From Paludibacteraceae bacterium (GTDB lineage: Bacteria; Bacteroidota; Bacteroidia; Bacteroidales; Paludibacteraceae), in NCBI GenBank assembly GCA_017387515.1, contig JAFOFC010000045.1, positions 1 through 59,265 of the forward strand: a stretch of 59,265 nt of DNA. Direction: 5' to 3'. The notes under the pieces were generated by a model, which was not told the DNA's origin, ran no database searches, and worked only from the letters and a program-made list of their open reading frames with translations. Numbering within the stretch: position 1 is the stretch's first letter; each line of letters starts with the position of its first letter. The translations under genes and the position numbers were made by a program. Below, in pieces: positions 2,992-43,221 of this stretch.

Positions 2992-5900
2992 ATGAAACAA
3001 TTCAAGTTGTTTGACCGCATTTTAGGGGGACTTGTGTTCATTATAGCCATGGTTACGTATGGGTTAACCATTGAACCTACCGCTAGCTTTTGGGACTGCC
3101 CCGAATTTATCTCTACTGCCACTAAATTAGAAGTTGGACACCCTCCTGGTGCACCATTTTTTATGCTAACCGGCAAATTTGTCAGTTTATTTGCGTCAGA
3201 CCCTACCCAAATTGCCTATTGCATCAATATGTTATCGGCATTCTTTAGTGCCCTTACCATTTTGTTCTTGTATTGGACCATCACCCACTTAGCACGTCGT
3301 ATTTTGGTGCAAAAAGACCAAGAAATACGTGCTTGGCAACTTATTACCTGCCTAGGCAGTGGTTTAGTAGGAGCATTGGCCTACACCTTTTCTGACACCT
3401 TTTGGTTCTCGGCTGTAGAGGCAGAAGTATACGCCTATTCGTCGTTCTTAACGGCCATTGTCTTTTGGCTGATTCTAAAATGGGAAGAACATGCCGACGA
3501 ACCTCGTTCAGACCGCTACTTGTTGTTAATCACCTACTTAATGGGGTTATCTATTGGGGTACACTTGCTTAACTTGCTAACCATTCCTGCCATTGTTTTG
3601 GTATACTATTATCGTAAATACCAAAATACCAATTGGAAAGGCATGTTGATAGCCTTGTTGGTATCGTTTGCCATTTTAGGCTTTATTTTATACGGTTTGG
3701 TTCCAGGATTTATCAACCTAGCAGGATACGTAGAACTTTACTTTGTAAACACCCTTGGTCTACCCTTTAACTCGGGAGCCCTATTCTACTGTTTTATAGC
3801 GGTTGCTGTGCTTATTTGGTCTATTGTAGAATTGTACCGCAACCAACCCAACCACTTACGCATTAAGATATCATCGCTATTGGCTATTAGCCTTTTGGGC
3901 ATTCCTTTTGTTATGGGCAACTGGTGGATTGGCTTGATTGTAATTGGCTTAATTATTGCCTATTTTGTTCGTACCAAAGAACTTAACATCCGTTTAATGA
4001 GCACGGTTATGACAGCCTTGGCTTTGATGCTATTGGGTTATTCTTGCTATGCGCTTATTGTGGTACGTTCGGTTGCCAACCCTACCATGGACCAAAACTC
4101 GCCCGATAACGTATTCTCGCTTAAATCGTACTTAAACCGCGAACAATACGGCGACAGACCCTTATTTTACGGTCCATACTATTCGTCAGAACCTATTTGG
4201 GTAGTAGACGGACAATATTGTCGTCCCCTATCGACCGAAGGCGAGAAAGTATGGGGCATGAAAGAAAAAACATCAGAAAACGAGAAAGATCAATACATTG
4301 TTACTGATGTAAAAACCAAGCTACAATACGACAGTAAGTTCCAAACCATATTCCCCCGCATGCACAGCAGTACTGGTGACCACCCACGTATATACGAATC
4401 GTGGGTAGACGTAAAGGGAAAAAGAGTTACTTACGACCAATGTGGCTACAAAAAGAATACCACCATTCCTACTTTTGGAGAAAACCTACAGTTTTTCTTT
4501 ACCTACCAATTAAACTACATGTATTGGAGGTACTTTATGTGGAACTTTAGTGGACGTCAAAACGACATGCAAGGGCATGGCGAAGTAACCAACGGCAATT
4601 GGATTACAGGTATTAACTTTATTGACAGTATTTTAGTAGGCGATCAAACCTACTTATCGGCCGAATATGCCAATAACAAGGGACGCAATGTTTACTACAT
4701 GTTACCTCTTATTTTAGGTATTATTGGCATGGTATACATGCTACAAAAAGGCAAAAAAGGGAAAGAAAATTTCTGGTTAACCTTTACCCTGTTCTTTATG
4801 ACAGGCATTGCCATTGTACTGTACCTAAACCAAGGCCCTTACGAGCCTCGCGAACGTGACTACGCCTACGCAGGTTCTTTCTATGCATTCTGTATTTGGA
4901 TTGGTTTTGGCGTAGCGGGATTGGCTAAAATACTAAACGATGCCTTGCAAACCGTGCTAAAAGACAACAACACCGCTACCGTAAAGGCTATTACAGCAGT
5001 TGTTGCCCTACTATTGGCATTGCCCGCTCCTATTTTAATGGCAACCGAAAACTGGGACGACCACGACCGATCTGACAGGTACTTGGTGCGTGATTTCGGC
5101 AAAAACTACTTTAATTCTTGCGATGCCAACGCCATTATCTTTACCAATGGCGACAACGACACTTTCCCGTTATGGTACTTGCAAGAAACAGAAGAAGACT
5201 CGGTTTCGCTAGACACACGTGTTTGCAACCTTTCTTACTTACAAACCGACTGGTACATAGACCAAATGCGTCGTCCAGCCTACCAATCGGCACCACTTCC
5301 TATTACCTGGAAGCGAGCCGATTACGCAGAAGGCGTAAGATCGTTGGTACGTTTAGAAGACCGCATTACTGGCCCTGTAGACTTAAAAGCAGCGCTTGCC
5401 TTTTTGCTAAACCAAGAAGGCACCACCAGCAACGATGTGTTACCTTGCAAAAAATTTAGCGTTCCCGTAAATGTTGACAATTTAATTAAACAAGGAGCCA
5501 TTACCGAAGCCGACCGCGACAAGATTGCGCCAGAAATGATTATCGACCTATCAAACAAGCGTTACATTACCAAAAGCGAGCTAATGATTTTGGAAATGAT
5601 TGCCCAAAACAATTGGGAACGCCCCATTTATTTTGCCGTAACCGTAGGTTCTGACATGCATCTAGGGTTAACCCGTCACTTGCAACTAGAAGGCATGGCG
5701 TATCGATTGGTTCCTTACAAAGAAGCAGGCAAAGAGGGTACCATTTCTACCCGCATCATGTATAACAATTTGATGAACAAATTTGCGTTTGGCGGCATTA
5801 ACAACCCCAATATTTACCTAGACGAGAACAGCGAACGCATGTGCCGTGCCCATCGTCAAATGTTTGACATGCTAATTGAGCAACTCATTAAAGAAGGCGA

Positions 5901-39962: not shown

Positions 39963-41576
39963 ATGAAAAAACAAACGGTATTTTTCTTACTATTTTGCTT
40001 GCTAACTGCCTTTGTATGGGGGCAAAAAACCCTTATATACCTTGACCATTCCGACAGGCTAGAGTTTGACAAAGAACGATGGCCCGATTGTCAAATAGTA
40101 AACGGTCACGTACAATTTAGGCACGAAGACATGATTATGTTTTGCGACAGTGCCTACTTTTACGACAGAACCAACTACATCGTTGCCCGTGGAAACATCA
40201 AAATGATACAAGCCGACACCCTATTCATCTACGGCGATGTTCTATACTACGACGGCGATGCCAAACTAGCCCGATTACGTCACAACGTACGCATGGAAAA
40301 CAAAGATGCCACCCTGTATACCGACTCGCTCAACTACGACCGAGCCAAAGAGGTGGGTTATTACTTTAATGGCGGACGCATTATTGACAAAAAAGACACG
40401 TTAACCTCTATAAACGGCAACTATTACCCCAAAGAAGAACTGGCCATATTCCAGTACGATGTAGTACTTACCAACCCCGATTTTGTATTAACATCAGATA
40501 CCCTACACTACGCAAGCAAAACTAAAATTGCCACCATATTAGGTCCATCAAACATTGTTTACGAAGATAGTACCCATATATACTCCGAATTGGGTTGGTA
40601 CGACACCGAAAACAACCTAGCCGAATTAACCCTCAACTCGCATGTAAACGACCTTAGCGGGCACCGTATTACGGCAGATACCCTTTTCCACAACCATAAC
40701 ACACACCTATCAGAGGGCTTTCAGAACGTACAACTAAACGATAGCACGCAAAAAATTATCATTACAGGGGGGTATGGTTGGTACAACGACAGCCTGCAGT
40801 CGGCTATGATAACCCAAACTCCTACCCTTATTCAATACGACGATAAGCAAGAGAGCGATTCGCTGTTTGTGGCTGCCGATTCCATGTGGTATTTAGACAA
40901 CGATTCACTACAATACATCAAGGCCTACTACAACGTACAAGCTTGGAAAGTTGATTTTCAAAGCATTTGCGACTCGGCTTATTACAATGGCAAAGACTCT
41001 ACCCTACGGCTGTACGGATCGCCTATTATGTGGAACGATAGCAACCAATTTACCGCCAGCGAAGCCATCGTATACATGGCTAACAACGAAGTAGAACGCA
41101 TTGAACTAGAGGCAGACGCATTTATTTTCTCTAAGGTAGACTCCACCGCTATCAACCAGGTATCGGGTAACAACATTGTGGGGTACCTAAAAGAAAGCAA
41201 ACTATACAAAGCAGATGTAAGCGGCAATGCGCTCTCTGTTTACTTTATAGAAGAAGAACCAGATAGCACCCAAGTTGACGCTCCCAAAGAACCTTCATAC
41301 GTAGGTATTAACAAGGCTGAGAGTAGCGAATTATTCTTATATTTTACAGAAGATAATAAAATTAAACGATTGGTTATGACGCCCCAATCGAATGGGGTTT
41401 TACACAGCCCCAAGAAGGCCAAAGACACCAAAGTTACCCGATTAGCTGGCTACCAAGATCATCAATCGCTACGTCCTACTAGCAAAACAGATATCTACAT
41501 TCCTAAAAAAAGAGAAGCCTTGACAGCAGAAGAACCCGCCGCCAAGGCCCGTAAAAAGCGCCGCAACCGCGATTAA
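39963..41576 (+). CDS. OstA/LptA-like periplasmic protein
   Basis: This 537-residue exported protein has a signal peptide (MKKQTVFFLLFCLLTAFVWG). Repeated beta-strand units of the OstA/LptA jellyroll follow, covering about residues 25-400 (VNGHVQFRHEDMIMFCDSA, ARGNIKMIQADTLFIYGD, LTSDTLHYASKT, and similar). LptA-type proteins form the periplasmic bridge for lipopolysaccharide export. The Bacteroidota versions are longer than the 185-residue E. coli LptA. The C-terminus is basic (KARKKRRNRD). It lies just after SurA-like, consistent with an outer-membrane assembly unit. The end overlaps trpB by 4 bases in convergent orientation. Confidence 0.85.
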   Translation: MKKQTVFFLLFCLLTAFVWGQKTLIYLDHSDRLEFDKERWPDCQIVNGHVQFRHEDMIMFCDSAYFYDRTNYIVARGNIKMIQADTLFIYGDVLYYDGDAKLARLRHNVRMENKDATLYTDSLNYDRAKEVGYYFNGGRIIDKKDTLTSINGNYYPKEELAIFQYDVVLTNPDFVLTSDTLHYASKTKIATILGPSNIVYEDSTHIYSELGWYDTENNLAELTLNSHVNDLSGHRITADTLFHNHNTHLSEGFQNVQLNDSTQKIIITGGYGWYNDSLQSAMITQTPTLIQYDDKQESDSLFVAADSMWYLDNDSLQYIKAYYNVQAWKVDFQSICDSAYYNGKDSTLRLYGSPIMWNDSNQFTASEAIVYMANNEVERIELEADAFIFSKVDSTAINQVSGNNIVGYLKESKLYKADVSGNALSVYFIEEEPDSTQVDAPKEPSYVGINKAESSELFLYFTEDNKIKRLVMTPQSNGVLHSPKKAKDTKVTRLAGYQDHQSLRPTSKTDIYIPKKREALTAEEPAAKARKKRRNRD

Positions 41577-42937
41577 GGTTGCAACGACTGTATTTTAGCA
41601 ATGCTATCGTCTATTAAGTCTTGAGGCACTTCGTAATTGGTCAATCCTCCGTGCAAATACTTTTCGTACGACATCATATCAATTAAACCATGGCCAGAAA
41701 GTTGGAATAAAATCACCTTTTCCTTGCCTTCTTCTTTCGCTTTCAAGGCTTCGCGAATAGCCACTGCAATAGCGTGTGTCGATTCAGGAGCAGGAATAAT
41801 ACCTTCGGCTTGCGAGAACAAAATGCCTGCTTTAAAGGTTTCATCTTGGTTTACGTTTTGCGCCTCGATGTAACCATCTTTTCTAAGTTGACTCACCACA
41901 TTGCCAGCACCATGGTATCTTAAACCACCAGCATGAATACTAGCAGGTTGGAATTCATGTCCTAGCGTGTACATAGGAATAAGTGGCGTATAACCTTCGG
42001 TATCACCAAAGTCGTAGCTAAATTTACCACGTGTCAATTTAGGACACGAAGCAGGTTCTGCTGCAATAAGTCGGATATCTTTTCCTTCTGTCAATTTATG
42101 GCGAAGGAAGGGGAAAGTAATACCACAAAAGTTAGAACCACCACCAAAGCATGCAATCACCATATCAGGGTAATCACCAGCAATTTCCATTTGTTTTTCG
42201 GTTTCAAGACCCGAAATAGATTGATGTATAGCTACATGGTGTAGTACACTACCCAAGCTATAGTGGGTATATTCATCTTTCAAGGCTTCTTCTACTGCCT
42301 CAGAAATAGCCATACCTAAACTGCCCGATGTGCCAGGGAATTGCTCGCGCATTTTTCTACCGATAGCCGTTACATCACTAGGAGAAGCATATACTTTTGC
42401 ACCATAGGTATTCATGACTGCCTTACGATAGGGTTTTTGCTCGTAGCTACATTTTACCATAAATACGCGCAAATCCAATCCAAAGTGCTTACATGCAATA
42501 CTAAGCGAACTACCCCATTGACCAGCACCGGTTTCGGTAGTTAAATGCTTAATACCTTCTATTTTATTAAAATAAGCTTGCGGAATAGCCGAGTTTAGTT
42601 TATGCGAACCCACAGGGCTTACACTCTCATTTTTAAAATAAATCTTAGCAGGTGTATCTAAGGCTTTTTCTAAACCAGAAGCACGTACCAATGGTGTAGG
42701 ACGATAAATGCGGTACAAATCACGCACTTCGTCTGGAATCTCAATCCAACGTTCGGTAGAGAATTCTTGTTTAATCAACTCCTTAGCAAAGATTGGTTCC
42801 AAATCTGCCTCGGTAAGAATCTCTTTTGTTTTAGGATTCAAGTAAGGCATTGGTTTGGTTTTCATATCTGCCACAATGTTATACCAAGATGTAGGCATCT
42901 CATTTTCTGGCAATACGATTTTTTTTGTTGTTTTCAT
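41573..42937 (-). CDS. trpB2: TrpB2-type tryptophan synthase beta subunit (stand-alone)
   Basis: This PLP enzyme converts indole plus serine to tryptophan. At 454 residues it is the longer TrpB2 form, with N-terminal MPTSWYNIVADM and PTPLVRASGLEKAL, the PLP lysine in VGSHKLNSA (K113), ETGAGQWGSSLS, the phosphate-binding CFGGGSNFCG, and a late LSGHGLIDMMSYEKY segment. No trpA or other trp gene is nearby. ATG at 42937 is chosen over a TTG 21 bases upstream, because family homology begins there. The gene is preceded by a trp attenuator (leader peptide with Trp-Trp and terminator), which is strong evidence that it is regulated by tryptophan. Confidence 0.93.
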   Translation of the reverse strand: MKTTKKIVLPENEMPTSWYNIVADMKTKPMPYLNPKTKEILTEADLEPIFAKELIKQEFSTERWIEIPDEVRDLYRIYRPTPLVRASGLEKALDTPAKIYFKNESVSPVGSHKLNSAIPQAYFNKIEGIKHLTTETGAGQWGSSLSIACKHFGLDLRVFMVKCSYEQKPYRKAVMNTYGAKVYASPSDVTAIGRKMREQFPGTSGSLGMAISEAVEEALKDEYTHYSLGSVLHHVAIHQSISGLETEKQMEIAGDYPDMVIACFGGGSNFCGITFPFLRHKLTEGKDIRLIAAEPASCPKLTRGKFSYDFGDTEGYTPLIPMYTLGHEFQPASIHAGGLRYHGAGNVVSQLRKDGYIEAQNVNQDETFKAGILFSQAEGIIPAPESTHAIAVAIREALKAKEEGKEKVILFQLSGHGLIDMMSYEKYLHGGLTNYEVPQDLIDDSIAKIQSLQP

Positions 42938-42973
42938 ATTGTATTTGTTTTTGTTCAATTACTACCCAATTAT

Positions 42974-43006
42974 TAAAAAAAACCGCAGGTGGATGACCTA
43001 CGGTTT
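42974..43006 (-). terminator. attenuator terminator in the trpB2 leader
   Basis: On the minus strand, AAACCGTAGGT (43006-42996) pairs with ACCTGCGGTTT (42990-42980) around the 5-base loop CATCC, with one G-T pair, followed by a run of about six T residues. It sits 37 bases before the trpB2 start, so transcription would stop before the gene when it forms. Confidence 0.92.
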
Positions 43007-43053
43007 ATATATAAACATACATAACACTATCCACCTTTACTGCTTAAAGGCGG
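42980..43053 (-). promoter_or_regulatory. trp attenuator: three competing hairpins
   Basis: Segment 1 (CCGCCTTT, 43053-43046) overlaps the end of the leader peptide and pairs with segment 2 (AAAGGTGG, 43038-43031). Segment 2 also contains AGGTGGAT (43036-43029), which pairs perfectly with ATCCACCT (42994-42987), the loop and 3' arm of the terminator. So a ribosome stalled at the Trp codons covers segment 1, segment 2 disrupts the terminator, and trpB2 is read. With tryptophan present, the 1-2 hairpin or the terminating ribosome blocks segment 2 and the terminator forms. Confidence 0.88.
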
Positions 43054-43088
43054 CGCCACCAAAATTTATGTGCCATGTAAGTATTCAT
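43044..43088 (-). CDS. trpL: trp leader peptide (attenuator)
   Basis: This 14-codon open frame reads MNTYMAHKFWWRRL followed by TAA. An internal ATG at 43076 is an alternative start giving MAHKFWWRRL. The tandem Trp codons lie 3 bases before hairpin segment 1, as needed for ribosome-position sensing, and the length equals that of E. coli TrpL. It lies about 12 bases after the expected transcription start and about 107 bases before trpB2. No homologue is claimed; the peptide is recognised from composition and position. Confidence 0.87.
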   Translation of the reverse strand: MNTYMAHKFWWRRL

Positions 43089-43106
43089 CCTATTTTTGTA
43101 ACGTTG

Positions 43107-43138
43107 CAAAGTTAGTATTTTATCTGAAATTAGCGCAA
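43107..43138 (-). promoter_or_regulatory. promoter of the trpB2 leader transcript
   Basis: On the minus strand, TTG (43138-43136) lies 21 bases before TAACTTTG (43114-43107), a good Bacteroidota promoter. Transcription should begin near 43100, just ahead of the leader peptide. The stretch 43139-43182 beyond it holds nothing I can recognise, before the rpmF terminator. Confidence 0.75.
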
Positions 43139-43182
43139 TTAGTTTGTAATTTTTTTAAAGAAAATACACCACCTTATTGCAA

Positions 43183-43221
43183 CACAAAAAGTTCGAATCG
43201 TCATTCAACAATCCGAACTTT
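43183..43221 (-). terminator. terminator of the yceD-rpmF unit
   Basis: AAAGTTCG (43221-43214) pairs with CGAACTTT (43195-43188). The inner sequence continues the stem with several G-T pairs to a GAAT loop, giving about 15 base pairs, followed by a T-rich tail. It lies 21 bases after the rpmF stop. Confidence 0.8.

Follow-up and report, generated by a model that had tools for sequence, protein, structure and literature searches.

Genomic Context and Structure of the Leader

The window, i.e., the whole stretch of 59,265 nt analyzed here, originates from a gut-type Paludibacteraceae bacterium (GCA_017387515.1, contig JAFOFC010000045.1) and carries a trpB2 gene preceded by a short leader, both on the minus strand (Table 1). 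The encoded protein scored above the cut-offs of two trpB2 families (NF009057, 704.8 bits against 366; TIGR01415, 615.4 against 518.85) and below that of the TrpB1 model TIGR00263 (155.7 against 392.45), in agreement with an earlier note on this DNA, which had named TrpB2 as the regulated gene. Its start was taken to be the ATG at 42937, and a TTG at 42958, found in a mechanical list of open reading frames, was set aside. At its 3' end trpB2 meets a convergent OstA-like gene (39963-41576, plus strand), the two stop codons overlapping by 4 bases (41573-41576). The small upstream neighbor is presumably the gene for ribosomal protein L32, judging from its sequence. This gene has a terminator-like hairpin of its own, so the terminator of the leader need not belong to it.

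Table 1. Features of the trpB2 leader and its surroundings; positions are those of the window, and sequences are read on the minus strand.
Feature	Position	Strand	Details or evidence
trpB2, TrpB-like PLP enzyme, 454 aa (regulated gene)	41573..42937	-	NCBIfam and PF00291
Intrinsic terminator	42975..43006	-	11 bp, 43006-42996 with 42990-42980; 5-nt loop CATCC; T8 at 42982-42975
Antiterminator target ATCCACCT	42987..42994	-	Loop (4 bases) and start of the terminator 3' arm (4 bases)
Segment 2	43029..43039	-	TAAAGGTGG (43039-43031), paired with segment 1; antiterminator strand AGGTGGAT (43036-43029)
Leader frame MNTYMAHKFWWRRL*, 14 codons	43044..43088	-	Translation; TGG TGG at 43061-43056
Segment 1 CCGCCTTTA	43045..43053	-	Overlaps the last codons and the stop of the leader
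Promoter-like TTG-N21-TAACTTTG	43107..43138	-	TTG 43138-43136, 21-nt spacer, TAACTTTG 43114-43107
Second terminator-like hairpin	43188..43221	-	Scan; 3' of the upstream small gene
Upstream neighbor, 61 aa	43243..43428	-	Translation

The earlier note had described a complete tryptophan attenuator ahead of trpB2, and its elements were recovered at the positions that it had given. Translation gave the 14-codon frame with its tandem Trp codons, and the stop codon indeed lies 5 bases ahead of segment 2. In the minimum-free-energy fold segment 1 pairs with segment 2 over 9 bp, while the antiterminator strand, which begins 19 nt past the last Trp codon, is the exact complement of its target over 8 bases. 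The 11-bp terminator with its T run was picked up independently by a terminator scan (-14.7 kcal/mol). The fold of the leader was better than that of 200/200 dinucleotide shuffles (z -3.85), and the antiterminator helix reached a shuffle p of 0.013 when two loop bases were required. The promoter-like element is likewise present at its site. It resembles TAnnTTTG, the Bacteroidetes -7 box, and this motif was found close to the leader start in 23 of the 37 leaders assembled below, against 34 of 740 mononucleotide-shuffled regions. A promoter scan of the window came out empty because the consensus that it sought was that of E. coli.

Recurrence of the Leader Upstream of trpB2 Homologs

We collected 110 loci with trpB2 homologs (L010-L119), which, after removal of five with short upstream sequence and eight duplicates, left 97 distinct upstream regions. 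The scan of these regions asked for a frame that opens with ATG, is no longer than 45 codons, carries two Trp codons separated by one codon at most, and has a terminator within 150 nt downstream. Such a combination was detected in 36/97 regions, compared with 0/485 dinucleotide shuffles and 3/364 regions upstream of other open frames in the same loci (frames of 120 aa or more taken mechanically, not annotated genes). Leader frames in relatives include MNLYIANKFWWRRL (L091), MNLYMAHKFWWRRL (L093), and MKNMVNNMQWWWRPN (L011). Terminators are common and a frame of 14 codons is short, which would favor an ordinary terminator beside a chance small frame, but in view of these counts, the separate hairpin of the upstream gene and the finding that relatives have kept both leader and stems, the window leader is not a chance arrangement and that explanation has a negligible probability.

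One further leader (L027) was added by hand, giving a set of 37 and leaving 60/97 regions with no such leader. The scan is conservative; L029, which has one Trp codon, L059, with the spacing W..W, and L109, which lacks a T run, are likely further leaders that lie outside its criteria. Farther away in the phylum, a search of 247 genomes supplied 29 more trpB2 loci, its best-scoring ones, and a leader with a terminator was accepted in five of them (L148-L151 and L153). The antiterminator is strong in L149 and L151, weak in L153, absent in L150 and oddly placed in L148. Another distant locus, L145, passed the scan and was rejected as it looks spurious.

Leader presence changes 13 times on a TrpB2 tree of the 97 rows, which is a quick tree with mixed branch supports. 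In Candidatus Enterocola intestinipullorum (L032), the interval from the L32-like gene to trpB2 showed no leader, which was likely lost there within a leader-bearing clade. Four leaderless relatives of Dysgonomonas (L023, L025, L037, and L038, or 4/60 leaderless regions) show a TrpG-like motif of the GVQFHPE type within 1500 nt upstream of trpB2, which may therefore belong to a trp cluster in these genomes. No TAnnTTTG was detected in L013, L016, L099, and L102, where the L32-like frame ends at most about 20 bases from the leader start, so that leader and trpB2 may be read-through products of the L32-like gene. In L017, a Cobalamin riboswitch (102.1 bits) at 5126-5330 follows the trpB2 match at a distance of about 0.8 kb.

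Pathway Context and Probable Role of TrpB2

The assembly that contains the window (1.76 Mb, 87% complete) has trpB2 as its single TrpB-type match (E ≤ 0.001). No match was found in it for TrpA, the IGPS/TrpC domain, the TrpE domain, or TrpB1, and with the assembly 87% complete an absent gene could lie in a gap. The searches for TrpA, TrpC, and TrpE detected each family in 14/14 control genomes. Within the same genus, the leader was present in all seven genomes without TrpA over the cut-off and without IGPS whose trpB2 upstream region was recoverable (G000, G151, G152, G155, G157, G158, and G161, the window's own genome included). Among the six with both TrpA and IGPS it was present in three (G149, G159, and G160) and lacking in G154, G162, and G163. 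This tally omits G153, where the gene is truncated, and G150 and G156, which gave no trpB2 match. Across 35 genomes classed by hand, the leader occurred in 13/17 TrpA-less against 7/18 TrpA-bearing genomes (Fisher p 0.04 with kinship ignored, G153 dropped and G002 omitted, the addition of which gives p 0.049 or 0.023), an association that we hold to be weak because relatedness is uncorrected and some of the genomes are incomplete.

The recurrence of this predicted tandem-Trp control in many Bacteroidales, among them genomes in which neither TrpA nor TrpC was detected, favors tryptophan synthesis through the salvage of indole. The simplest role for trpB2 would be to make tryptophan, probably from such scavenged indole. 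The function of TrpB2 is disputed, and a role as serine deaminase has been hypothesized (PMC1854888). The attenuator could then be real and the enzyme do something else, e.g., deaminate serine, with tryptophan as a mere signal of the amino-acid state. We consider this unlikely, since the TrpB2 proteins tested had poor serine deaminase activity (PMC1854888), the predicted control acts via Trp codons, and the TrpG-like motif lies near four leaderless trpB2 genes.

Antiterminator Helices across Relatives

The best helix between the sequence past the Trp codons and the terminator, with its position left free, took in at least two loop bases in 34/37 leaders. When two loop bases were required of real and shuffled sequences alike, it was better than 95% of the shuffles in 29/37. 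A clear antiterminator was not found in six of the 37 leaders (L013, L019, L108, L050, L065, and L116). The other 31 could be classified by the part of the terminator that is paired, namely the loop and the 3' arm in 14, as in the window, and the 5' arm and the loop in 17. The arm in use changes three times among these 31 rows on the same quick tree of 97 rows with mixed supports. Between clades the helices are wholly different and still complementary (AGGTGGAT/ATCCACCT, AGGAGGGT/ACCCTCCT, GTCGTGAG/CTCACGAT, TGTGAGC/GCTCACG, and TCGTGAACAATG/CGTTGTTTACGA). The antiterminator strand begins 13-21 nt past the last Trp codon in 32/37 leaders, while the distance from that codon to the leader stop ranges from 6 to 51 nt. 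Segment 2 is therefore placed with respect to the stalled ribosome that the model predicts, and not to where the frame ends.

Pairs were counted on eight leaders (A2) taken from a MAFFT alignment of 13 (A1), as segment 2 was out of register in several A1 rows. There, the antiterminator was paired in 95.3% of cells, against 34-50% in slid versions, and hairpin 1:2 in 87.5%, against 44-58%. Together with the 36/97 leaders, this indicates that the tandem-Trp frame and the stems are conserved in relatives, a point on which the earlier note had made its reading depend. The covariation for which it had also called is less clear. Pairing beats the slid versions for both helices, but two-sided changes are few, one pair in the antiterminator among the eight sequences (equalled by 232/500 shuffles) and two pairs in hairpin 1:2 (matched by 104/500), and covariation within so close a clade is thin because the sequences are close. 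During the building of a covariance model from these leaders (R1, see below), RNAalifold selected the antiterminator helix, with the terminator at a disadvantage as its 5' arm was out of register in two A2 rows. Sequence and comparison show the leader with its stems and spacing, the matched antiterminator changes between clades, and the lone gene downstream.

Predicted Switching and Proposed Mechanism

The growing transcript was folded step by step, either unmasked or with a mask over the 10 nt that follow the Trp codons. For the window, the masked transcript gave an antiterminator probability of 0.94 with 2 of the 11 bases of the terminator 3' arm transcribed, 1.0 with 4-6, and 0.21 with 8. 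With segment 1 available (unmasked), it was at most 0.03 at the steps printed. When segment 2 is free, the finished terminator wins at equilibrium (P 0.99 with 10/11 bases of the 3' arm). Antitermination thus has to be kinetic, and in these models an antiterminator on the 3' arm is workable only as a kinetic competitor. RNA polymerase covers roughly the last 13-14 nt of the RNA. With the polymerase on the U run, about half of the 3' arm would consequently be out, which is the phase in which the antiterminator is predicted to dominate. With half of this arm transcribed, the masked probability was at least 0.9 in 30/31 classified leaders, and the unmasked one at most 0.1 in 13/31 and at least 0.5 in 8/31. 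The difference reached at least 0.3 in 22/31, a clear switch in folding. Since the helix was chosen for its complementarity, high values under the mask are to some extent built in, and the fall with segment 1 present is the informative part. It is this folding that predicts a switch between the alternative structures.

On the mechanism that we propose, when charged tRNA-Trp is ample the leading ribosome would clear both Trp codons and reach the stop 5 bases before segment 2. Segment 2 would then be either under the ribosome or paired in hairpin 1:2, letting the terminator form and stop transcription ahead of trpB2. When tryptophan is scarce, the ribosome would stall at UGG UGG and mask segment 1, leaving segment 2 free to grab first the emerging terminator loop (AUCC) and then extend into the 3' arm (ACCU). 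This would delay the terminator enough for RNA polymerase to clear the U run, and the TrpB2 so made would probably join serine to scavenged indole. Ribosome stalling and tryptophan as its signal are what the Trp codons and their spacing suggest.

A real tryptophan leader could also have its decision taken elsewhere, for example by ribosome-coupled read-through, by Rho, or by control of trpB2 translation. The equilibrium advantage of the finished terminator would fit this, as would the 8/31 classified leaders (unmasked probability at least 0.5) for which a clear switch was not predicted and the six without a clear antiterminator. However, the helix has been swapped wholesale between clades with complementarity retained, and RNAalifold selected it, though with the terminator handicapped in A2. 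We regard a decision elsewhere as quite improbable. The features of a tryptophan attenuator are in place, i.e., a short translatable tandem-Trp frame upstream of a Trp gene and, in the window and in its relatives, a mutually exclusive hairpin 1:2, antiterminator and intrinsic terminator. Recurrence, spacing, and the alternative helices all support the reading of the earlier note, and this lone trpB2 is very probably controlled by a ribosome-mediated transcription attenuator responding to tryptophan.

The window leader is real, conserved, and mechanistically ordinary in kind. What is new is its target, a lone trpB2 in a genome without detectable TrpA, TrpC, TrpE, or TrpB1, its recurrence in relatives, its position beyond the reach of Rfam, and antiterminators that swap the terminator arm. 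A wider view, to which we give roughly even chances, is that an attenuator class across part of Bacteroidota, largely outside Rfam, couples stand-alone TrpB2 to the charging of tRNA-Trp, that many of its hosts have shed the remainder of the pathway and live on the indole of their neighbors, and that its antiterminator is seeded on the apical loop of the terminator, with the invaded arm switched in evolution. If this is true, attenuator searches that presume pairing with the 5' arm would overlook the 3'-arm form. Moreover, control of trpB2 through Trp codons would make indole salvage directly testable, and a loop-seeded, arm-switching antiterminator would be a natural test of how late antiterminators can form and still win.

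Comparison with Known Leaders

The authors of a 2010 report knew of leader-peptide systems demonstrated in no phyla other than Proteobacteria and Actinobacteria (PMC2965389). In a B. thetaiotaomicron transcriptome study, short frames in long 5' UTRs were said to recall attenuation leaders, and its main text does not contain the word "tryptophan" (PMC7366714). A second such paper contains none of the terms sought (PMC10994844). The literature matches listed included no description of a trpB2 attenuator from Bacteroidota, and the additional files of PMC2864571, which discuss motifs such as Bacteroid-trp, may mention one.

Rfam, searched at gathering and at permissive settings, has no family that covers the window leader. 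Eleven weak matches overlay the leader region, and the highest bit score among them belongs to the trpB motif RF04312, whose terminator was aligned. This family, described in Firmicutes and Fusobacteria and sometimes found before trpB, has a hairpin with its right side possibly acting as antiterminator, followed by a terminator (PMC11109978), much like the arrangement in the window. It is listed as a strong riboswitch candidate, with a classic attenuator still possible (PMC11109978). The window leader could by analogy be a ligand-binding riboswitch or a protein-binding leader instead of a leader-peptide system. We judge this highly unlikely, as RF04312 remained at 24.3 bits in the window (E 0.32), where its gathering score is 59, and was absent at E up to 2 from 12/12 loci of the window's clade, and the conserved parts are the tandem Trp codons, their gap to segment 2 and the alternative helices (an aptamer core was sought through Rfam). 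Across 149 genomes of the same order, weak matches to RF04312 occurred in 8, none of them over the cut-off. Seven of the nine weak loci were scanned (L001-L003 and L005-L008), and a tandem-Trp leader with a terminator was found in none of these seven.

The enterobacterial trpL leader (RF00513) shares with the window leader a tandem-Trp leader peptide, a hairpin 1:2, an antiterminator, and a terminator with a U run, although the window scored 16.1 bits against a cut-off of 41 for this family. In trpL the antiterminator pairs with the 5' arm of the terminator, whereas in the window it takes four bases each from the loop and the 3' arm, and the target is a single gene. The earlier note had singled out this pairing as a departure from trpL. 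The pairing is real, but it is no local oddity, being the type of 14/31 classified trpB2 leaders and of all seven RF01692 loci discussed next.

RF01692, the "Bacteroidete tryptophan peptide leader RNA" (Bacteroid-trp), was introduced in PMC2864571, where a table rates it as probably RNA, probably cis-regulatory, and probably no riboswitch. The suggestion of the earlier note that such attenuators are less well described in this phylum than in Proteobacteria therefore has to be qualified, since this family is already in Rfam, although Rfam misses the window leader. RF01692 matched 7/61 relatives, four of them over the cut-off, and each of the seven loci is followed by a TrpB1-type match in the same orientation, unlike the lone trpB2 that follows the window leader. 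Both share the phylum, a tandem UGG leader, a terminator, a gap of 17-19 nt (19 in the window), and an antiterminator on the loop and 3' arm. A scan requiring two loop bases found the latter in 7/7 RF01692 loci (L120-L126; in L124 and L125, GTCGTGAG pairs with CTCACGAC), and this feature is consequently not special to the window. The RF01692 model as aligned ends at the 5' arm of the terminator, which leaves the pairing with the 3' arm out of it. It gave no match in the window leader up to E 10 and none in 11 relatives when E values up to 2 were allowed, and only one of 20 other trpB2 loci passed it (L044, 49.2 against 49). Our own model R1, built from eight leaders of the window's clade with the window included, found a single site in the window's genome, the leader itself (part of its training set). 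It also matched the RF01692 site in G183 and leaders before TrpB1 homologs in G020 and G018, in which no good antiterminator was found by the scan requiring two loop bases. Even though the window leader misses the gathering score of RF01692, the two are best seen as one extended group.
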